Source: Pseudomonas sp. PDM18 (GTDB taxonomy: Bacteria; Pseudomonadota; Gammaproteobacteria; Pseudomonadales; Pseudomonadaceae). Taken from it: 64,000 nt of DNA. Below, piece by piece: positions 6,672 through 20,999 of this stretch (positions are counted from its first letter, which is position 1; each line of letters starts with the position of its first letter). Location of the stretch: NCBI RefSeq assembly GCF_014852585.1, contig NZ_JACVBX010000002.1, forward strand, positions 620,001 through 684,000, given 5' to 3'. The notes below the pieces were generated by a model. It had not been told where the DNA came from. It made no database searches and saw only the letters and a program-made list of their open reading frames with translations. The translations under genes were made by a program, and so were the position numbers.

Positions 6672-8036
6672 ATGATCAGAAGTACTATGCTGCGCGCTGG
6701 CGCGATGGCGCTGTCGTTGCTGGCCACCAGCGTGATGGCTGCCGTCACCCCCCAGGAAGCCGAGCAACTGGGCACCACCCTGACCCCGCTGGGTGGCGAG
6801 AAGGCCGGCAACGCCGATGGCAGCATTCCGGCCTGGACCGGTGGGCTCAAGCCCGGCGCCGCGCCGGTGCAGAATGGCTTCCTGGGCAACCCGTTCGCCG
6901 ATGAGAAGCCCTTGTTCACCATCACCGCGGCCAACGCCGAGCAGTACAAGGACAAGCTCACCCCTGGCCAGCTCGCGCTGTTCAAGCGTTACCCGAACAG
7001 CTACAAGATCCCGGTGTATCCGACCCATCGCACGGCCGCCGCTCCCCAGGCGGTCTACGACGCGGTGAAGAAGGGCGCTACCGTGGTCAAGCTGATCAAC
7101 GATGGCAACGGCCTGGCCGACTTCAACACCCACTACTACCCGTTCCCGATCCCCAAGAGTGGCGTGGAAGTGGTGTGGAACCACGAGACCCGCTATCGCG
7201 GCACCAACATGGAACGCTTCAGCGCCCAGGCGGTGCCGCAGACCAACGGTGACTTCACCGTGGTCGGCTTCAAGGAGAACCTCGGTTTCCCGCAGTACAT
7301 CGCCGACAACGACCCGAGCAAGACCGGCAACATCATGTACTACTACAAGCAGGAGATCGTTGCCCCGTCGCGCCTGACCGGCACCGTCAACCTGGCCTAC
7401 GAGACCATCGACCAGCTCAAGGAGCCGCGCCAGGCCTGGACCTACAACGCCGGCCAGCGCCGCGTGCGGCGCGCCCCCGAGGTAGCCTACGACGGCCCCG
7501 GCAGCGCCGCCGACGGCATGCGCACCGCCGACAACTCCGACCTCTACAACGGCTCGCCGGACCGCTACACCTGGAAGCTGATCGGCAAGAAGGAGCTGTA
7601 CATCCCGTACAACAGCTACAAGCTGTGGTCGCCCACCTTGAAGTACGCCGACATCATCAAGCCGGGGCATATCAACCAGGACCTGACGCGCTACGAGCTG
7701 CACCGCGTCTGGGAAGTCGAAGGCACCCTCAAGCCGGGCGAGCGGCATATCTACGCCAAGCGCCACATGTACTTCGACGAAGACACCTGGGCATTGGTCG
7801 AGATCGACCACTACGACAGCCGTGGCCAGCTCTGGCGCGTCGCCGAGGGCCATCAGGTCAACGACTACGAGCACGGCCAGGCAGCCTACGCGGTACAGAC
7901 TCTTTATGACCTGATCGCCGGACGCTACATGGCGATGAACATGATCAACGAGTCCAAGCGCGGTCCGCAGTTCGATCAGCAGTACAAGAACAACGACTTC
8001 ACCCCGGCGGCCCTGCGCAACGCCGGCATCCGCTGA
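6672..8036 (+). CDS. DUF1329 family exported protein
   Basis: Protein of 454 aa with a clear Sec signal (MLRAGAMALSLLATSVMA, cleavage about residue 23). The mature part matches DUF1329, a periplasmic or outer-membrane-associated family with a LolB/LolA-like fold, including the WNHETRYRG and YAKRHMYFDEDTW segments. It follows the DUF1302 gene by 22 bp with GGAGA as its ribosome site, so the two are almost certainly co-expressed. The fold suggests carriage of lipophilic molecules between barrel and membrane; this is inference. Confidence 0.88.
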   Translation: MIRSTMLRAGAMALSLLATSVMAAVTPQEAEQLGTTLTPLGGEKAGNADGSIPAWTGGLKPGAAPVQNGFLGNPFADEKPLFTITAANAEQYKDKLTPGQLALFKRYPNSYKIPVYPTHRTAAAPQAVYDAVKKGATVVKLINDGNGLADFNTHYYPFPIPKSGVEVVWNHETRYRGTNMERFSAQAVPQTNGDFTVVGFKENLGFPQYIADNDPSKTGNIMYYYKQEIVAPSRLTGTVNLAYETIDQLKEPRQAWTYNAGQRRVRRAPEVAYDGPGSAADGMRTADNSDLYNGSPDRYTWKLIGKKELYIPYNSYKLWSPTLKYADIIKPGHINQDLTRYELHRVWEVEGTLKPGERHIYAKRHMYFDEDTWALVEIDHYDSRGQLWRVAEGHQVNDYEHGQAAYAVQTLYDLIAGRYMAMNMINESKRGPQFDQQYKNNDFTPAALRNAGIR

Positions 8037-8040
8037 GCCA

Positions 8041-8070
8041 GTGCGGCGGCCGCCGCGCGCGCCGCCGCAC
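8041..8070 (+). terminator. Rho-independent terminator after the DUF1302/DUF1329 pair
   Basis: GTGCGGCGGC and GCCGCCGCAC form a perfect 10-bp stem with a 10-base GC loop, four bases after the stop codon, followed by TTTCC. It most likely ends the DUF1302/DUF1329 transcript before the regulator gene. Confidence 0.6.
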
Positions 8071-8254
8071 TTTCCGAACGCTCAGAACCTTGCTCTGCAT
8101 CAAAGGGCGGCGGGGACTTCCCGCGGCCACCTGATACGGGGGGCGTCCGCGCCTCCCGGCACTTCCAAGATGCTTGCCAATGCAGCACAGGAGCGCGATT
8201 GCGTTCCTTGGCTGGAGTGATCGCTTCGTCTAACGCCATAGATCGAGGTATGTC

Positions 8255-10714
8255 ATGCAAGGTCTGGGTGCCACTCTTCCGCACGCCAATGGGCGCTGGG
8301 CTTGCCTGCCGGCCCTGCCGTCAGGGCACGTTCCCCGGCAACAGTTGCAGGCGCGTTTACGTGGCAGCCGCCAGCGTCTGTGCCTGCTCTGCGCACCGGC
8401 CGGCTACGGCAAGAGCGTTCTGCTCGGCGAGAGCCTGGCGCAGCTTGCAGCGGGTGAGCAGGTGGTCTGGCTGAGCCTGGGCGGACAGGTCGAATCGCTG
8501 CAGGCGTTGTCCGCGCGTATCGCCCTGGAGCTCGATCTGAACCTGCCTCAGGGCGCCGGGCCGGCCACTTTGCTGAGGTATTTCGCCACCCATCCGGCAC
8601 CGCTCAAGCTGGTGCTGGACGATCTGCCCGGTGAGCTGTCGATAGAATTGAACAACTGGTTCGACCACCTGCTGGCGTTGCCCAGCAGCCACCTGCAGTT
8701 GTGGGTCAGCAGCCGCCAGCGGCCGAACTGGAACCTGCCGCGGCTGATGCTGCGCAATGAGTTGCTGGAGCTGGATGCCGCCGAATTGGCGATGACCCGC
8801 GCAGAGTTCGAGCGCTTGCTCGAGGTTTCTTCCAGCCCCTTGCCGGCGCCCGCGCGCGAGCACCTCTGGCAGCGTGCCGAAGGTTGGTGGGCGGGTATCC
8901 GACTGCTGCTCAGCGGCGGCGCGGACAGCGATCCCGGCAAAGGCCTCGGGCTGATCCGGGACTACCTGGAGCATGAACTGCTGGCCCGCCTGGGCGATGC
9001 CGAACGCAATATTCTCTACGGGCTGACCCACCTGCCGAGGTTCTCCACCGATCTCTGCGCGCAATTGTGGGAGGAGCACGGCGGCCGCCAGGTGTTGCGG
9101 CGGCTGCTGCAATGCCAGGCCTTCATCTTCCCGCTGGAGGCGCGCGGCGCCTGGTTCCGCGTGCTGCCGGTGGTGGCCGAAGCGCTGCAGGAGCGGGTCG
9201 AGGCGGCCGAGCTGTCGCGTTTGCGCCTGCACTCGTGCCGGATGCTGAGCATCGCCGGTCACCTGAACGAAGCCATCGAGCAGGCGCTGCAAGCCGAGCA
9301 GCCGGAAGTGGCCGCCAATTACATGCAGAAGCTGCTGCCGAGCTGGCAGTTGGCCGAGCACAACCTGCACCGCCTGCTGGAGTGGCGCGAGCAGTTGCCC
9401 GGCTATCTGCTCGAAAGCACCCCGCGGCTGATCTATCTGTGCTCCCTGGCCTTGTACGGCAGCGGGCGCCTGAGCGAGGCCGATCAGTGCCTGGCGAAAC
9501 TGGAACGCTTCCTGCCTTGCGCCGACCCGCAACTGGACGTGCGACTGCGTGCCAACTGGCAGGCGCTGCGGGGGCTCGGCCTGGCCTCACGGGGGCAGGC
9601 CGAGGAGGCGTGCCAGGCCTGTCAGGAAGCCTTGCGCCATCTGCCGTCGGGAGACTGGATCTCCATCGTCGTGTGTTATTCGACACTGGCCCGGCTGGCC
9701 ATGGCCGGCGGCCGACTCGCCGAGGCCCGCGAGCTGCTGGACGAAGCCGTGGAACTGGCGCGCCGCGAGGGCTGCCTGGACAGCGAAGTACTGATCAACA
9801 CCGATCGCCTGCGCCTGCTGATACTGCTCGATGAAGTCTCGATCGCCGAGGCGTTGCTGGCGGAAACCCTGGAGTGGCGAACGTCGGCGCATATCCCGCG
9901 CGATCCGCTGCTGGCTCGCCTGTTGTTCCTGCAGGGCGAACTGCACCTGCTCCGTGGCCGCGTCGGGGCGGCGGAGGATTCATTGCGCGCGGGGCTGGCT
10001 CACGCGCAGCACAGTTCGGCGCCGTACATCCAGTTCGGCCACCTGCTGCTGGCGGAAGCGGCCAGCCGCACCGGCCAGCATGAGCAGGCGCTGCTGCATC
10101 TGCATGAGACCGAGCGGCGCATGCATTGCGGCCGTATCGACAGCCAGTGCTACGGCGGATCGGTGCTGCTGCACTCGCTGCGCGTGCTCGCCCGCCGTGG
10201 CGAGTGGCGCACGCTGCTGCGCCGCGCCGGCAGTGCCGAGGCATGCCAGCCGTCGCTGCTGCATCCCAGCCTGCCGCAGGAAATAGAGCTGATCGTGGCG
10301 CAAGCGGAAATCGCCCTGGGCCTGCCGCAACAGGCGCGCCTGCGCCTGAATGCCCTGGCCGGGGACTGTGCCAGCCGTCGCTTGCGCCTGCTTGAGCGCG
10401 AGGCGCGGGCGCTGCTCAGGCAGTTGCCCGAGGTTGCCGAGAAGACTGTCGCCGCATCGTTCGATAGCCCCCTCAAGGCCAGCCCGGACGTGGCGGAAGA
10501 GGCGAGCTTCTGCGCCCGCCTGGAAGACCTGACCCCGCGTGAGTCCGCGGTGCTGACGCTGCTGGCGCGCGGCATGTCGAACCAGGAGATCGCCGACAGC
10601 CTGTTCCTCTCGGTGAACACCGTGAAGTACCACGCCAAGAACATCAACGCCAAGCTGGGCAGCACCCGGCGCACCCAGGCGATTGTCTTCGCCAAGGCGA
10701 TGGGGCTGATCTGA
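8255..10714 (+). CDS. MalT-like LuxR family transcriptional regulator
   Basis: Large ATP-dependent LuxR regulator (LAL/MalT type) of 819 aa. It has an N-terminal P-loop CAPAGYGKS (Lys53), a STAND-type NTPase region, a long helical TPR-like middle rich in Leu/Ala/Arg, and a C-terminal LuxR helix-turn-helix (about 757-819) with the signature LTPRESAVLTLLARGMSNQEIADSLFLS. ATG 8255 is chosen because GAGG lies 6 bp upstream. Family members bind an inducer and ATP, multimerise and activate catabolic operons, so it is the obvious candidate activator of the surrounding acyl-CoA genes. Confidence 0.9.
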   Translation: MQGLGATLPHANGRWACLPALPSGHVPRQQLQARLRGSRQRLCLLCAPAGYGKSVLLGESLAQLAAGEQVVWLSLGGQVESLQALSARIALELDLNLPQGAGPATLLRYFATHPAPLKLVLDDLPGELSIELNNWFDHLLALPSSHLQLWVSSRQRPNWNLPRLMLRNELLELDAAELAMTRAEFERLLEVSSSPLPAPAREHLWQRAEGWWAGIRLLLSGGADSDPGKGLGLIRDYLEHELLARLGDAERNILYGLTHLPRFSTDLCAQLWEEHGGRQVLRRLLQCQAFIFPLEARGAWFRVLPVVAEALQERVEAAELSRLRLHSCRMLSIAGHLNEAIEQALQAEQPEVAANYMQKLLPSWQLAEHNLHRLLEWREQLPGYLLESTPRLIYLCSLALYGSGRLSEADQCLAKLERFLPCADPQLDVRLRANWQALRGLGLASRGQAEEACQACQEALRHLPSGDWISIVVCYSTLARLAMAGGRLAEARELLDEAVELARREGCLDSEVLINTDRLRLLILLDEVSIAEALLAETLEWRTSAHIPRDPLLARLLFLQGELHLLRGRVGAAEDSLRAGLAHAQHSSAPYIQFGHLLLAEAASRTGQHEQALLHLHETERRMHCGRIDSQCYGGSVLLHSLRVLARRGEWRTLLRRAGSAEACQPSLLHPSLPQEIELIVAQAEIALGLPQQARLRLNALAGDCASRRLRLLEREARALLRQLPEVAEKTVAASFDSPLKASPDVAEEASFCARLEDLTPRESAVLTLLARGMSNQEIADSLFLSVNTVKYHAKNINAKLGSTRRTQAIVFAKAMGLI

Positions 10715-13476: not shown

Positions 13477-14673
13477 ATGGACATACATTTCACGCCCGAG
13501 GAAATCGTCTTCCGCGAGGAGGTTCGGGCCTTCCTGCGCAGCGAGCTGCCGGCCGAGATATCCACGCGCATCCTCCAGGGCAAGCGCCTGAGCAAGGAGC
13601 ACCAGGTGGCCTGGATGCGCACCCTGAACCAGCGCGGCTGGCTGGCCCCGGGCTGGCCGGTGGAATATGGCGGCACCGGCTGGAGCCTGGTGCAGAAGCA
13701 CATCTTCGAGGAGGAGTGCTTTGTCGCCGGGGCGCCGAAAGTGGTGTCCTTTGGCGCCAAGATGGTCGCGCCGGTATTGATCAAGTTCGGTACGCCGGAG
13801 CAGAAGGCGCGCTTCCTGCCGCGCATCCTCGACAGCAGCGAATGGTGGTGCCAGGGCTACTCCGAGCCGGGCGCCGGCTCCGACCTGGCTTCGCTGAAGA
13901 CCCGCGCCGTGCGGGATGGCGAGCACTACGTGGTGAATGGCCAGAAGATCTGGACCACCCTGGCGCACTACGCCGACTGGATGTTCTGCCTGGTCCGCAC
14001 CGACCCGGAAGCGCAGCAGCAACGCGGTATCTCGTTCCTGCTGATCGACATGAAAACCCCCGGCATCACCATTCGCCCGATCATCACCCTGGATGGCGAG
14101 CACGAAGTCAACGAGGTGTTCTTCGACAACGTGCGGGTGCCGCTGCAGAACCTGGTCGGCCGCGAGAACGAAGGTTGGACCTGCGCCAAGTACCTGCTCA
14201 CCCACGAGCGCACCACCATCGCCGCCATCGGCATGACCAAAATCATGCTGCAACGCCTGAAGCGGGTGGCCGCCCGTGAACTGCGCAATGGCCGCCCGTT
14301 GCTCGAGGACCCGCTGTTCCGCGCGCAGATCGCCGACGTCGAGATGCAGGCGATGGCCACCGAGATGAGCAATCTGCGCACCCTGGCTGCCGCCCGCGAT
14401 GGCGGTGCGCCCGGCGCCGAGAGTTCGATCCTGAAGATCAAGAGCACCGAGCTGCGCCAGCAGATCGCCTACCTGATCAGCAAGGCGGTGGGCGCCTATG
14501 CCTTGCCCTTCCTCGACGAGGAAATCGGTTACGGCGATGGCCAGGCATTGCTGCACAACGCCGACAGCAGTGCCGCCACCTACCAGTACCTGGATACCCG
14601 CAAGGCCTCGATCTACGGCGGCGCCAACGAAATCCAGAAGAACATCATCGCCAAGATGATCCTCGAGCTGTAA
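13477..14673 (+). CDS. Acyl-CoA dehydrogenase family protein (large subunit-like)
   Basis: FAD-dependent acyl-CoA dehydrogenase fold, 398 aa. It has an N-terminal helical domain, GYSEPGAGSDLASL (FAD/substrate loop, about 128-140), the WTTLAHYADWMF strand, and a C-terminal segment YGGANEIQKNIIAKMIL typical of the family. AAGGAA precedes ATG 13477. It is followed after 12 bp by a second, shorter and divergent acyl-CoA dehydrogenase, the arrangement seen for heteromeric enzymes such as those of steroid side-chain degradation. The pair would introduce the double bond hydrated by the crotonase at the window start. Confidence 0.9.
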   Translation: MDIHFTPEEIVFREEVRAFLRSELPAEISTRILQGKRLSKEHQVAWMRTLNQRGWLAPGWPVEYGGTGWSLVQKHIFEEECFVAGAPKVVSFGAKMVAPVLIKFGTPEQKARFLPRILDSSEWWCQGYSEPGAGSDLASLKTRAVRDGEHYVVNGQKIWTTLAHYADWMFCLVRTDPEAQQQRGISFLLIDMKTPGITIRPIITLDGEHEVNEVFFDNVRVPLQNLVGRENEGWTCAKYLLTHERTTIAAIGMTKIMLQRLKRVAARELRNGRPLLEDPLFRAQIADVEMQAMATEMSNLRTLAAARDGGAPGAESSILKIKSTELRQQIAYLISKAVGAYALPFLDEEIGYGDGQALLHNADSSAATYQYLDTRKASIYGGANEIQKNIIAKMILEL

Positions 14674-14685
14674 GGGGCCCCGAAC

Positions 14686-15828
14686 ATGGACTTCAAACTC
14701 ACAGAAGAGCAGCAGATGCTGCAGGACACCGCGGCCCGCCTGGTTCGCGACACCTATAGCTTCGAGCAGCGCGAGACTTTCCTGCGCAGCCCATTGGGCT
14801 TCAGCGCCGATGCCTGGCAGCAACTGGGTGCGCTCGGCCTGACCGCCGCGCCCTTCGCCGAGGCATATGGCGGTTTCGCCGGGAGCGGGGTGGACATCCT
14901 GCTGATCGCCAAGGAACTGGGCCGTGGCCTGTGTCTGGAACCCTTCCTGCATTCGGTGGTGTTCGGCGGCGGCCTGCTGGCCCAACTGGGCAGCGCGGCG
15001 CAACGCGAAGCGTTGCTGCCGCGAGTGGCCGACGCCAGCCTGCAACTTGCGGTGGCCCTGGAGGAGCCGCAAAGCCATTACCAGTTGCATGACTTGCGCA
15101 CCCGCGCGCAGAAGGTCGACGGCGGCTGGCGCCTGAACGGCCACAAGGCCGCGGTGTTCGGTGGGCATAGCGCCGGGCTGATCCTGGTTTCCGCCCGTAC
15201 GGGCGGCGCCGAACGCGACGCGGCGGGCGTCAGCCTGTTTCTGCTCGACCCGCAGAGTACCGGCGTGCGCCGACGCGAGTACCCGACCACGGACGGGCGC
15301 AAGGCCTGCGACCTGTACCTGGAGGACGTGTTCGTCGCCAATACGACCTTGCTGGGCGGAGAGGGCAAGGTTTTGCCGGCGCTGTACTACCAACAGGGGC
15401 GGGCCATCGCGGCGCAGTGCGGCGAAGCGTTGGGCAGCATGGAGGCGGCCTGCCAATTGACCCTCGACTACCTGAAGGTGCGCCAGCAGTTCGGTCAGCC
15501 GATCGGCAAGTTCCAGGCCCTGCAGCACCGCATGGTCGACATGCGCATCGAGTTGGAACAGGCCACTTCCATGGCGTTGCTGGCGGCATGCGTGGCCGAT
15601 GAGGCGGACAGCGACGACCGCAGCCGGACCCTGGCCGCCGCCAAGTACATCATTAGTCGCGCCGGGCGCTTCATCGCCGACCAGGGTATCCAGTTGCACG
15701 GCGGTATCGGCCTGACCTGGGAGTATGCGTTCTCCCACCACGCCAAACATCTGCTGATGATCGCCCGCCAGTTCGGTGACGACGATTATCACTTACAGGC
15801 CTACAGCACGCTGATGCAGGACGCCTGA
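14686..15828 (+). CDS. Acyl-CoA dehydrogenase family protein (partner subunit)
   Basis: Second acyl-CoA dehydrogenase, 380 aa, 12 bp after the first. It keeps the fold landmarks (EAYGGFAGSGVDILLIAKELGRG, QLHGGIGLTWEY near 330) but its middle region is degenerate: the usual GSD-type FAD loop is replaced by EEPQSHYQLHDL. That pattern is common in the non-catalytic or half-site partner of heterotetrameric dehydrogenases. The assignment as a partner rather than an independent enzyme is inferred from adjacency and degeneracy. Confidence 0.86.
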   Translation: MDFKLTEEQQMLQDTAARLVRDTYSFEQRETFLRSPLGFSADAWQQLGALGLTAAPFAEAYGGFAGSGVDILLIAKELGRGLCLEPFLHSVVFGGGLLAQLGSAAQREALLPRVADASLQLAVALEEPQSHYQLHDLRTRAQKVDGGWRLNGHKAAVFGGHSAGLILVSARTGGAERDAAGVSLFLLDPQSTGVRRREYPTTDGRKACDLYLEDVFVANTTLLGGEGKVLPALYYQQGRAIAAQCGEALGSMEAACQLTLDYLKVRQQFGQPIGKFQALQHRMVDMRIELEQATSMALLAACVADEADSDDRSRTLAAAKYIISRAGRFIADQGIQLHGGIGLTWEYAFSHHAKHLLMIARQFGDDDYHLQAYSTLMQDA

Positions 15829-17463: not shown

Positions 17464-17513
17464 ACCCGCCAGCGCCTTTCCTTGGTCCGGGCCGCACGTG
17501 GCCCGTTTCCCCG

Positions 17514-17897
17514 ATGAATATCCTCGTCGCAGTCGAGCGCGTGGTCGATTTCAACGTCAAGGTTCGCGTCAAGGCGGACGACAGCGGCGTCGACCTCGCC
17601 AACGTGAAGATGGCCCTCAATCCGTTCTGTGCAATCGCCGTGGAAGAAGCGGTGCGCCTGAAAGAGTAGGGCGTCGCCAGCGAAGTGGTGGTGGTTTCGG
17701 TCGGCCCGAATACCGCTCAGGAGCAACATATAGCGGTGGGCATCTCCGGCGCCATCCAGCACCTGGCGGGCATGAAAGACTCCAAGGTCATCGTGGCCAT
17801 CAACAAGGACGAAGAGGCGCCGATCTTCCAGGTGGCCAACTACGGCCTGGTGGGCGATCTGTTCGAGCTCGTGCCGGAGCTGGAAAAGGCCATCTGA
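17514..17897 (+). pseudogene. Collapsed etfB-etfA electron-transfer flavoprotein remnant
   Basis: The frame opens with the N-terminus of ETF beta ([20 protein letters not shown], then [24 protein letters not shown]). A TAG at 17667 stands where the family has Lys, and the same frame continues [19 protein letters not shown]. It then switches abruptly near 17730 to the C-terminus of ETF alpha ([36 protein letters not shown]). Roughly the last three quarters of EtfB and most of EtfA, including the FAD site start, are gone. It reads as a duplicate etfBA operon reduced by one internal deletion plus a nonsense change. It lies next to acyl-CoA dehydrogenase genes, whose electrons ETF would accept. 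Confidence 0.85.
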
Positions 17898-18004
17898 GCC
17901 CAATAGCCCGCGGATACCGTTTTACGCAGGAGCAGATGAGCGGCTGGCACGTTCAAGCGCAAGCCGAGCGTGCCGGTGCTGCTCCTGTCTTTTTGAAGGG
18001 TTGC

Positions 18005-18219: not shown

Positions 18220-19506
18220 CTATACCTTTAATCCCTTGATTGAGTGAGCCCGCTGCTCGTCGAGCGAGTTGTAGTAGGTGTTCTGCGTGGTGCTGAGGCT
18301 GTTGTGGCGGAGATCAGCCTGTAAGTCCTTCATATCTCGGTGGGGGGCATCGAAGGTTGCAGCGGTGTGGCGCAGCCAGTGCAACGAGGCGGAGCGTAGC
18401 TGGTCGATTTCATCGTCACTCCAACCTTCGGCGGCCATGCGCCTCAGCGATCGATCGAAGACTTCCTGCAGGAGTAGCCGGATGTGGCGATCAGAGAGGC
18501 CGGCGCGTCCTCTCAGGGTGGTGAGCAATGGAAATTTATCCTGGGGCGAGGGCAGGGGAGGCAGTCGCAGGTGACGGCGGTAGCGCACCAGGTAGTCCTG
18601 CACGTAGTCGTCACGCACGCTGATCTTGGCGGCCTTATTGCCCTTACCGACCACGTGGAACCACCAGTTACCGGTGCTATCGCGGCGGAAATCACCCATG
18701 GTCGGTTCCCAGTTATCGCGACCGACGAGATCGGAGATACGCAGGTACATGGAGAACAGCGTGGCAATGACGAACAGCGTGCGTTCGTGCTGCGGATCTT
18801 CCGCGGCCATCAGTTCGGCTGTCTCGATGACGAAGTTCCATTGCAACTGGGTCAGCGAGCGGGAGGCGACGTCGAGGGTATTGCGCTGCTTATAAATGGA
18901 CTTCTGTTTGACCGCGCGGAACGGATTCACCTCGGTCAGGCCTTCGTCCATAGCGTGTTGGAAGAAGCTGCCGCACACTGCGAAAACCTGCGCCACCGAC
19001 CCCTGGGACATGCGATAAGGACGCTCGGGCAACTCGCTCAGCATCTCGGCAGCAAGCTTGCGTTCGCGCTTGGCCAGGGTGCTGGAGAAGGGGCGCCAGT
19101 CTGGATTGACGACACAGCTGTCGGACTCCAGCTTCTTGCGACCGCCGACCCGCACGAAGCGCGACTTGATCACAGGGCCGATCCAGTCGGCAGGAGGATT
19201 GAGGCAGAATTCCATGAAGGCCTCGGCATCTTTTCGACGCAGATCAATCAATGGTTTTTCAGCCACCAGAGCTGACCAGAGAAGCAGGCGTTCAACGTGG
19301 GTGCGGTACGAGTTGTAAGTAGCCTCATTGCCTGCGTAGGACTTCAGAAATCCGCGCACGGCCAGGTAGCTGTCAATTGCCATGGTTTGGTCAGGCAAAT
19401 TCCGCAGGAAGCCGAGAACGACAGGAAGCTCTGAGTTAAGCCCCAGGAAACTGAGTTCATGAAAGCGGGCAAAGGTGTCGAACAGTGGCTGGGGATTTTG
19501 AGGCAT
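18220..19506 (-). CDS. Site-specific tyrosine recombinase (integrase)
   Basis: 428-aa phage-type integrase read leftward. An N-terminal SAM-like core-binding domain (IDSYLAVRGFLKSYAGNEATY) is followed by the catalytic domain. The catalytic set is visible: Arg in MYLRISDLVG, Lys in VVGKGNKAAKI, HWLRHTAAT (His-x-x-Arg), a late His in LRHNSLSTT, and the nucleophile Tyr in QNTYYNS. No excisionase or phage structural genes accompany it. It lies about 0.7 kb from dif, between the etf remnant and a 5'-truncated gene, so it is probably the survivor of an element inserted at the terminus. Confidence 0.9.
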   Translation of the reverse strand: MPQNPQPLFDTFARFHELSFLGLNSELPVVLGFLRNLPDQTMAIDSYLAVRGFLKSYAGNEATYNSYRTHVERLLLWSALVAEKPLIDLRRKDAEAFMEFCLNPPADWIGPVIKSRFVRVGGRKKLESDSCVVNPDWRPFSSTLAKRERKLAAEMLSELPERPYRMSQGSVAQVFAVCGSFFQHAMDEGLTEVNPFRAVKQKSIYKQRNTLDVASRSLTQLQWNFVIETAELMAAEDPQHERTLFVIATLFSMYLRISDLVGRDNWEPTMGDFRRDSTGNWWFHVVGKGNKAAKISVRDDYVQDYLVRYRRHLRLPPLPSPQDKFPLLTTLRGRAGLSDRHIRLLLQEVFDRSLRRMAAEGWSDDEIDQLRSASLHWLRHTAATFDAPHRDMKDLQADLRHNSLSTTQNTYYNSLDEQRAHSIKGLKV

Positions 19507-19539
19507 GGAAATCGAGACGTGGCTGCGAGGCTATAAGGC

Positions 19540-19956
19540 TTGCAGCTTCGCGGCGAGGGCCAACTGTTCATGTGGACCCCTTTTTTGATGCGGGCTCTGG
19601 CGGACCAGCCGCAGGTTAGTATTGTTCTAAGCACTAGCTGGGTTCGCCAGTTTGGCTTCCATCGCACACGGGGATATCTCCCAGAAGCCATTCGGGACCG
19701 AGTAATCAGTGCCACATGGCACAGCACAATGGCTCGCAACTCAGCAGATCAAAGCTGGTGGGATGGAGCGTCACGATACGAACAGATTTGCCGTCACGCA
19801 GCACGAGCGAGACTGAGCGGTTGGCTTGCTATTGATGACGACACTGCAGGCTGGCCAGTTGAGGCCAGACACCATTTACTGCCGTGTGACGGAAGGTTTG
19901 GACTCTCACAGCAAGGATGCATTGATTCACTACGGGTATGGGCAAGCGGGGAGTGA
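19540..19956 (+). pseudogene. HAD-domain protein lacking its N-terminus
   Basis: Open frame of about 138 codons whose sequence (LRGEGQLFMWTPFLMRALAD, IVLSTSWVRQFGF, ISATWHS, WLAIDDDTAGWP) resembles the HAD-like domain proteins of Pseudomonas. The expected N-terminal motif with the two catalytic aspartates (hhhDhDGVL) is missing: a stop lies at 19534 and only a TTG could start the frame. The 5' end abuts the start of the divergent integrase gene, so truncation by recombination is the simplest reading. The second half, including the IDDD acidic motif, is intact. Confidence 0.6.
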
Positions 19957-20067
19957 GAGCCATAACTCGCGCATTTCGCACTGCGAAATCATTTGCACCC
20001 GTTTGCCTGCCGATTTCTGCATTTAGAGATTCGGCGCGCAGGTTCCTAGGTCAGTGGCACTGATAAG

Positions 20068-20102
20068 GTTTCAGTCTCGTTTTTTAAAAACGAGACTGAA
20101 AC
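20068..20102. repeat. 35-bp palindrome near dif
   Basis: GTTTCAGTCTCG (20068-20079) is the exact reverse complement of CGAGACTGAAAC (20091-20102); the centre is six T then five A, so pairing extends through almost the whole element. It could act as a bidirectional terminator or cruciform, or be a recombination-site remnant. It lies 144 bp from dif. Confidence 0.75.
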
Positions 20103-20154
20103 AGACACGGCTCTGCGGCGGCGAAAGTACGCATAAGTCTCTGAAATCAAAGAG

Positions 20155-20194
20155 TCCATTTTTCAAAAAACGAAAATCCATTTTTTAAAAAGCG
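20155..20194 (+). repeat. Two direct repeats TCCATTTTT(C/T)AAAAA
   Basis: Copies at 20155-20172 and 20177-20194 are 22 bp apart start to start, about two helical turns, and share the T-run/A-run core with the palindrome at 20068. The spacing suggests paired protein sites; function unknown. Confidence 0.5.
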
Positions 20195-20245
20195 GCGACA
20201 CCAGCTTCTGGTTGCCGGTGTTGGTGGCCGTTGGGATTACCCTAG

Positions 20246-20273
20246 GCTTCGCATAATGTATATTATGTTAAAT
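20246..20273. other. dif: dif site (XerCD recombination site, replication terminus)
   Basis: A 28-bp site: XerC arm GCTTCGCATAA, central region TGTATA, XerD arm TTATGTTAAAT. The centre and XerD arm equal the Escherichia coli dif sequence exactly and the XerC arm differs at only two positions, giving 26 of 28 matches. dif is where XerC/XerD, activated by FtsK, resolve chromosome dimers at division. It therefore places the window at the replication terminus. It is non-coding and lies among element remnants, as expected for a locus also used by Xer-exploiting elements. Confidence 0.95.
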
Positions 20274-20900: not shown

Positions 20901-20999
20901 ATGTCCATGCGTGTGCAGTTCTCCCCTTCGACACCCTCCCCCACGTCCGCCGATTCGTTTCGTCGCCTGACGCCTTCAGTCGCCGCGCCCGTGCGCTGA
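20901..20999 (+). CDS. Possible leader peptide
   Basis: A 32-codon frame beginning MSMRVQFSPSTPSPTS, preceded by AGAGGA and a small hairpin and ending 61 bp before the isomerase-like gene. Ser/Thr/Pro-rich and unconserved to my knowledge; it might be a translated leader or chance. Confidence 0.25.
   Translation: MSMRVQFSPSTPSPTSADSFRRLTPSVAAPVR

Follow-up and report, generated by a model that had tools for sequence, protein, structure and literature searches.

A plasmid-type tyrosine recombinase gene beside dif in Pseudomonadaceae and the likely loss of XerCD/dif in some lineages

XerCD/dif is regarded as nearly universal and as the fixed partner of FtsK. Single-recombinase systems are represented by XerS/difSL of streptococci and XerH/difH of epsilonproteobacteria, in which, according to passages of PMC5357621, the site adjoins the recombinase gene and lies near the terminus. 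In Legionellales, XerL stands where XerCD would, and xerL lies more than 400 kb from its dif (excerpt of PMC9765430). Plasmid R27 carries both a Y-recombinase and a dif-like site (excerpt of PMC11724359). Cre-loxP placed in ter substitutes for XerCD-dif without FtsK activation and in dependence on KOPS-guided translocation, as the relevant passages of PMC2680272 describe. In open-access papers searched for a recombinase beside dif in Pseudomonas, for dif or XerC loss in this genus and for its plasmid resolution systems, no report of the arrangement described here was found among the matches listed. The accessible portions of two dif-site surveys contain no mention of a recombinase beside dif.

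The locus described here lies in a 64,000-nucleotide stretch from Pseudomonas sp. PDM18, referred to as the window; positions are those of the window unless a contig is named, and other genomes (G) and loci (L) carry working numbers. Compared with XerCD/dif of P. aeruginosa PAO1, the locus is alike in 27 of 28 dif positions (reference sequence as given in PMC2731167), in the single copy, in the convergence of KOPS and in the presence of XerC and XerD. It differs by a recombinase gene of another family, located 740 bp from dif. This recombinase family resembles XerS/difSL and XerH/difH, as far as the source text portrays them, in pairing a single recombinase gene with an adjacent site in the terminus region. 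Unlike XerS, it belongs to another sequence family by model score, mostly coexists with XerCD/dif and occurs also on plasmids. With XerL/dif, as described, it has in common the place that XerCD would take, and it differs in that its site and gene are adjacent. With Cre-loxP-type systems and other Y-recombinases of low-copy plasmids, in the form in which the excerpts present them, it shares an own recombinase and one site per replicon; it differs from plasmid resolution systems in occurring also on chromosomes next to dif, some of which have naturally lost XerC and dif.

The dif site occupies positions 20246 to 20273 on the plus strand. Its sequence is GCTTCGCATAATGTATATTATGTTAAAT, with XerC arm GCTTCGCATAA, centre TGTATA and XerD arm TTATGTTAAAT. 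The initial annotation had reported 26 of 28 positions equal to dif of Escherichia coli, and direct comparison with the E. coli sequence returned the same count, in addition to the match with PAO1. The best dif matches in three mononucleotide shuffles of the window had 11 to 12 mismatches. Within the 6.43-Mb assembly of 65 contigs, the site is the only copy at up to three mismatches, and there is one copy of the 13-base XerD half; a second or better dif was looked for across the assembly at the same limit and none was found. Exactly one dif at up to two mismatches is present in 24 of 25 genomes of the genus, among which the window's genome groups with G001 and G014. In this genome, XerC scores 357.7 bits against a cut-off of 335.15, and XerD 386.5 bits against 329.6.

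The orientation of the KOPS motif, GGGNAGGG, switches at this site. Over 272.7 kb of contig C22, 48 of 53 motifs are oriented toward dif, with 36 on the plus and 4 on the minus strand to its left, and 1 on the plus and 12 on the minus strand to its right. The switch falls between 638550 and 640934 of the contig, an interval that includes dif at 640246; the nearest motifs are GGGCAGGG on the left (18550 to 18557, plus strand) and GGGGAGGG on the right (20934 to 20941, minus strand). The signal is one of polarity and not of number, with 9 of the 10 motifs inside the window oriented toward dif at a frequency not above chance (10 found, 14.5 expected). The maximum of the cumulative GC skew is located about 25 kb from dif in the same 272.7-kb stretch of a genome that is in 65 contigs. 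Skew and KOPS likewise switch at dif in P. aeruginosa, according to an excerpt of PMC6199493. Given its 28-bp form, single copy, KOPS convergence, nearby skew switch, and the presence of XerC and XerD, the site is the chromosomal dif of the terminus, and its earlier designation as a marker of the replication terminus is upheld by its uniqueness and by KOPS orientation. By itself, this dif is ordinary.

The neighbouring gene (18220 to 19506, minus strand) is transcribed away from dif and encodes a tyrosine recombinase of 428 amino acids with conserved active-site residues. R256, K288, H376, R379, H401 and Y411/Y412 are kept and are invariant across 21 relatives; we take them to fill the catalytic roles of the R-K-H-x-x-R-H-Y active site of tyrosine recombinases. 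The protein matches integrase families (phrog_1, 9.2e-15) and stays under the cut-off of the Pfam Phage_integrase model (18.6 vs 27.1 bits). Its identification as XerC or XerD was rejected on the basis of the NCBIfam equivalog cut-offs, with 58.4 against 335.15 bits and 32.6 against 329.6 bits. XerS was rejected as well, as the window protein has no match to the NCBIfam model and the protein of G080 reaches 19.4 bits against a cut-off of 267. A 21-row profile found no solved structure related by sequence at E<=0.01, and no defence families were found.

Relatives of the recombinase are found on chromosomes and plasmids. All 30 loci from named genomes are titled Pseudomonas, Stutzerimonas or Serpens. 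Among plasmid records, 1504 of 72,556 include a relative, 16 of them at an identity of at least 60%; among 50,697 phage records a single one has a relative, at 25.6% identity, and none has the core site described below. Matches occur in 14 of the 25 genus genomes, and in 13 of these a copy or remnant is located beside dif; the fourteenth, G004, has no dif. In a wider sample of 248 genomes of the family, the gene is present in 56 at E<=1e-60 and dif in 231.

The distance between gene and dif was counted for 57 genomes of the Pseudomonadaceae sample, comprising these 56 and G003, which has a remnant, with dif positions read from fetched sequence stretches. The gap to dif is at most 5 kb in 43 of the 57 and at most 3 kb in 41, with a median of 784 bp. 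Dif faces the 5' end of the gene in 38 of the 43 (28 with the XerC-arm side, 10 with the XerD-arm side) and the 3' end in five. The remaining 14 consist of seven genomes without dif, G195 with a degenerate dif (two mismatches, about 190 bp from the gene), and six in which the gene lies away from an existing dif (G040, G076, G216, G224, G234 and G244). Blastn of positions 10001 to 32000 of the window against 60 loci revealed little in common besides the recombinase, with a longer left flank only in G015; the linkage to dif is therefore not simply conserved gene order. The gene is under purifying selection, with dN/dS of 0.02 to 0.20 in 18 of 19 pairs and an undefined value in one near-identical pair.

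Some loci show further features beside dif. A second recombinase, at 29–38% identity, is located between dif and the recombinase in L043, L044, L059, L117, L125 and L131, always on the XerD side, and two of these six have no NCBIfam model match. Changed dif centres or XerC arms occur beside the recombinase in L048, L049, L053, L054 and L122, with the centres TGCACA, TGAAGA, TTATGG and TGCACG. These altered copies are perhaps early stages of dif loss.

A dif-like inverted repeat of about 30 bp, the core site, precedes the gene in the main subfamily. It reads AATATCCGATAA-YNNYCA-GACCCGGATATT, and its layout of two arms of about 12 flanking a centre of 6 is much like that of dif. The core site is usually located 45–90 bp upstream of the start codon, and further off in L053 and L132. 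Genome-wide searches of the 25 genus genomes yielded 13 core sites in 11 genomes, each next to a gene copy or remnant and none elsewhere; the gene occurs without a core site in G000, G017 and G020. In G080, G087 and G039, where 400, 140 and 120 kb were fetched, the core site is single in the fetched stretch. Fifteen plasmid records have one core site each, 65–115 bp upstream of the gene match; together with MRCP2, which has a variant, they account for all 16 records whose relative reaches an identity of at least 60%. One of the plasmid loci, L114 (P. aeruginosa plasmid pF061_1), has an 83%-identical recombinase copy (8001–9293) with a core site and, 5 kb on, at 14626–15597, a gene whose annotation reads DNA replication terminus site-binding protein. 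A search for core-site strings in open-access papers returned two matches, both unrelated.

Among gene copies below 70% identity, divergent subfamilies have own repeats built in the same way. The repeat AATTTCCGATTA-CGTCCA-TAATCGGAAATT is found in G107 and G126 and, one base shorter per side, in G114; TATTCCGATTA-TGCCTA-TAATCGGAATA is shared by G040 and G065, and ATTTCCGATAT-TAGCCA-TTATCGGATAT by G131 and G201. Under the same repeat rule, a few further divergent copies have other repeats or none; none was found in G017, G028, G061, G076, G122, G141, G144, G159, pMPPla107 and pHN232.

In the window itself, the core site is missing. The stretch between recombinase start and dif (19507 to 20245) matches the core site of the relatives with 14 of 30 mismatches at best, and the assembly has no core site at up to three mismatches. 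A displaced or degenerate copy near the gene was also sought; the best candidates have 13 to 14 of 30 mismatches, no better than the shuffles, whose best matches average 11.5. Similarity between the window copy and its relatives ends at the start codon. The place of the core site is taken by a replaced stretch with a HAD_SAK_2 gene fragment (19540 to 19956, plus strand; profile positions 36–137 of 139) and a palindrome. The palindrome, GTTTCAGTCTCGTTTTTTAAAAACGAGACTGAAAC, spans 35 bases at 20068–20102; two T-run/A-run repeats come after it and reach to about 20195. L094, L096 and L101 have similar T/A-run motifs flanking their dif on the XerC side. The left flank at 17498–17898 is common to the window and G015 (L101), where it is on the XerD side, so that dif and flank are mutually inverted between the two. 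Despite the missing core site, the recombinase is well conserved, with 3 of 244 invariant positions changed. As the core site is gone, the module of the window is probably inactive; dif, XerC and XerD remain, and the host therefore presumably relies on XerCD/dif.

The initial annotation had ascribed the lone integrase to the attraction of dif for Xer-using elements. This part is not sustained, as the relatives have a core site of their own, one per gene, and neither a second dif nor an att copy was found; a remnant of an Xer-using element was rejected on these grounds. The arrangement also differs from an IMEX, which has two flanking dif-like sites and uses the XerCD of its host, since there is a single dif and an own recombinase.

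In the family sample, 17 of 248 genomes have no dif at up to two mismatches. Seven of them (G004, G032, G039, G047, G070, G080 and G087) have both the gene and the core site. A looser search, at up to three mismatches, found no dif in six of the seven, and in G070 one site without the XerC arm. The other ten comprise five genomes less than 90% complete, G195 with its degenerate dif, and G026, G098, G206 and G219, which have no dif at the limits used and no gene at E<=1e-60 and keep XerD; an unseen dif is therefore not always a sign of replacement. G219 is a single contig of 5.31 Mb, and its lack of dif extends to three mismatches. A quick tree built from 72 gene copies, for which long branches were noted by the program, requires three changes for the loss of dif, two of them forced by starred branches.

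The fate of XerC and XerD was followed with the XerC model in 14 genomes and the XerD model in 20. XerC exceeds its cut-off in none of the seven gene-bearing genomes without dif, vs all seven comparison genomes (G000, G005, G054, G094 with its pieces summed, G101, G108 and G195). The xerC locus has the order dapF-DUF484-xerC-HAD. The gap between DUF484 and HAD measures 48 bp in G004 and 24 bp in G039, vs 939 bp in the window's genome, indicating that xerC was removed from the operon. G070, G080 and G087 keep pieces of xerC that lack both the initial ~105 residues and the final part of the active site, and G047 has a piece of the same kind, cut by the contig end. In G032, an eroded xerC with a longer frame and a changed LGH motif scores 242 vs 335 bits. 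XerD is over its cut-off in five of the seven and absent in G004 and G039, where the best scores are 57.5 and 73.6 bits. Of these five, only G087 retains the XerD hairpin lysine, which G032, G047, G070 and G080 have lost. Two of the seven genomes, G080 and G087, are closed, and the other five are drafts.

KOPS are oriented to the recombinase locus in 30 of 31 cases in G087 (140 kb), 21 of 22 in G039 (120 kb), 33 of 39 in G004 (140 kb) and 67 of 77 in G080 (400 kb). This polarity may be no more than a legacy of the lost dif. The GC skew is less clear: G087 and G039 have its maximum at the locus, G080 has it at a distance of 70 kb, and in G004 it falls on the edge of the stretch. A core site beside the gene at the point of KOPS convergence is thus found in G004, G039, G080 and G087 and missing in the window. 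Lone XerD-type arms, ATTATGTTAAAC, at G080:C1:592170 and G087:C1:2667679 are perhaps dif relics. Their distance from the core site is about 20 kb and 9 kb, respectively; three KOPS lie between lone arm and core site in each genome, all oriented on to the core site.

Taken together, a plasmid-type module with a single recombinase quite probably settles beside dif as a second dimer-resolution system, with XerCD/dif lost in about three lineages; the function assigned to the module here is predicted from sequence. One tyrosine recombinase would act on one core site upstream of its own gene. A chromosomal core site would resolve dimers only where KOPS-guided FtsK joins the sister chromosomes, as for Cre-loxP replacing dif in E. 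coli, which would be why the module is kept beside dif. With such a second system for chromosome dimers in place, dif, XerC and finally XerD could become dispensable. The module may have arrived at dif by repeated insertion with selection, or by plasmid fusion at dif. On balance, the module would be plasmid-derived, would have settled by dif repeatedly in Pseudomonadaceae and would have taken the place of XerCD/dif in about three lineages. Present-day genomes would then show the successive stages: both systems present; dif altered; dif lost and XerC eroding; XerC in fragments and XerD without the hairpin lysine; and both gone.

Other readings of the same data differ in how they account for the gene at dif. 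It is unlikely, if conceivable, that the recombinase is a relic of mobile elements that integrated at or beside dif, be it an island with an integrase or a user of XerCD, whose other end and cargo have decayed. Dif is a known landing site, as for LME-1 in Legionella (excerpt of PMC9765430), the second recombinases between dif and recombinase in the six loci named above look like accretion, and dif arms or centres are altered in L048, L049, L054 and L059. However, genus genomes with a core site have one per gene instead of two flanking ends, and dif is single in 24 of 25 of them; a decaying relic also sits poorly with purifying selection on the genes and with the loss of XerC and dif in gene-bearing genomes. 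Purifying selection also speaks against the proposal that the terminus merely tolerates foreign genes and that the seven genomes lost dif, XerC and XerD through unrelated decay, in which nothing replaced them. Variable dif flanks fit this proposal, as do G026, G098, G206 and G219, which are without a visible dif and also without the gene. It is nevertheless improbable, since the gene lies much too close to dif, and too regularly so, for a position taken at random in a genome of 3–7 Mb, XerC over the cut-off is found in 0 of 7 vs 7 of 7 genomes, and two of the seven genomes are closed.

Very improbable is the reading that the upstream inverted repeat is an operator of the recombinase gene and that the enzyme acts on dif itself. 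The usual distance of 45–90 bp from the start codon would suit an operator, yet the repeat has the shape of a tyrosine-recombinase site, its arms being kept around a variable centre of 6. Moreover, the plasmid copies L114, L115 and L116 have no dif-like site in the surrounding 17–21 kb, and two of them have the repeat, while gene and repeat persist on chromosomes from which dif is gone.

If the replacement of XerCD/dif by the module beside dif is true, such a repeated natural takeover would illustrate a route by which the known single-recombinase systems could have come about. It would also raise the question of how an enzyme other than XerC and XerD is controlled by FtsK. Closed genomes are available for the direct study of chromosome-dimer resolution without XerC.
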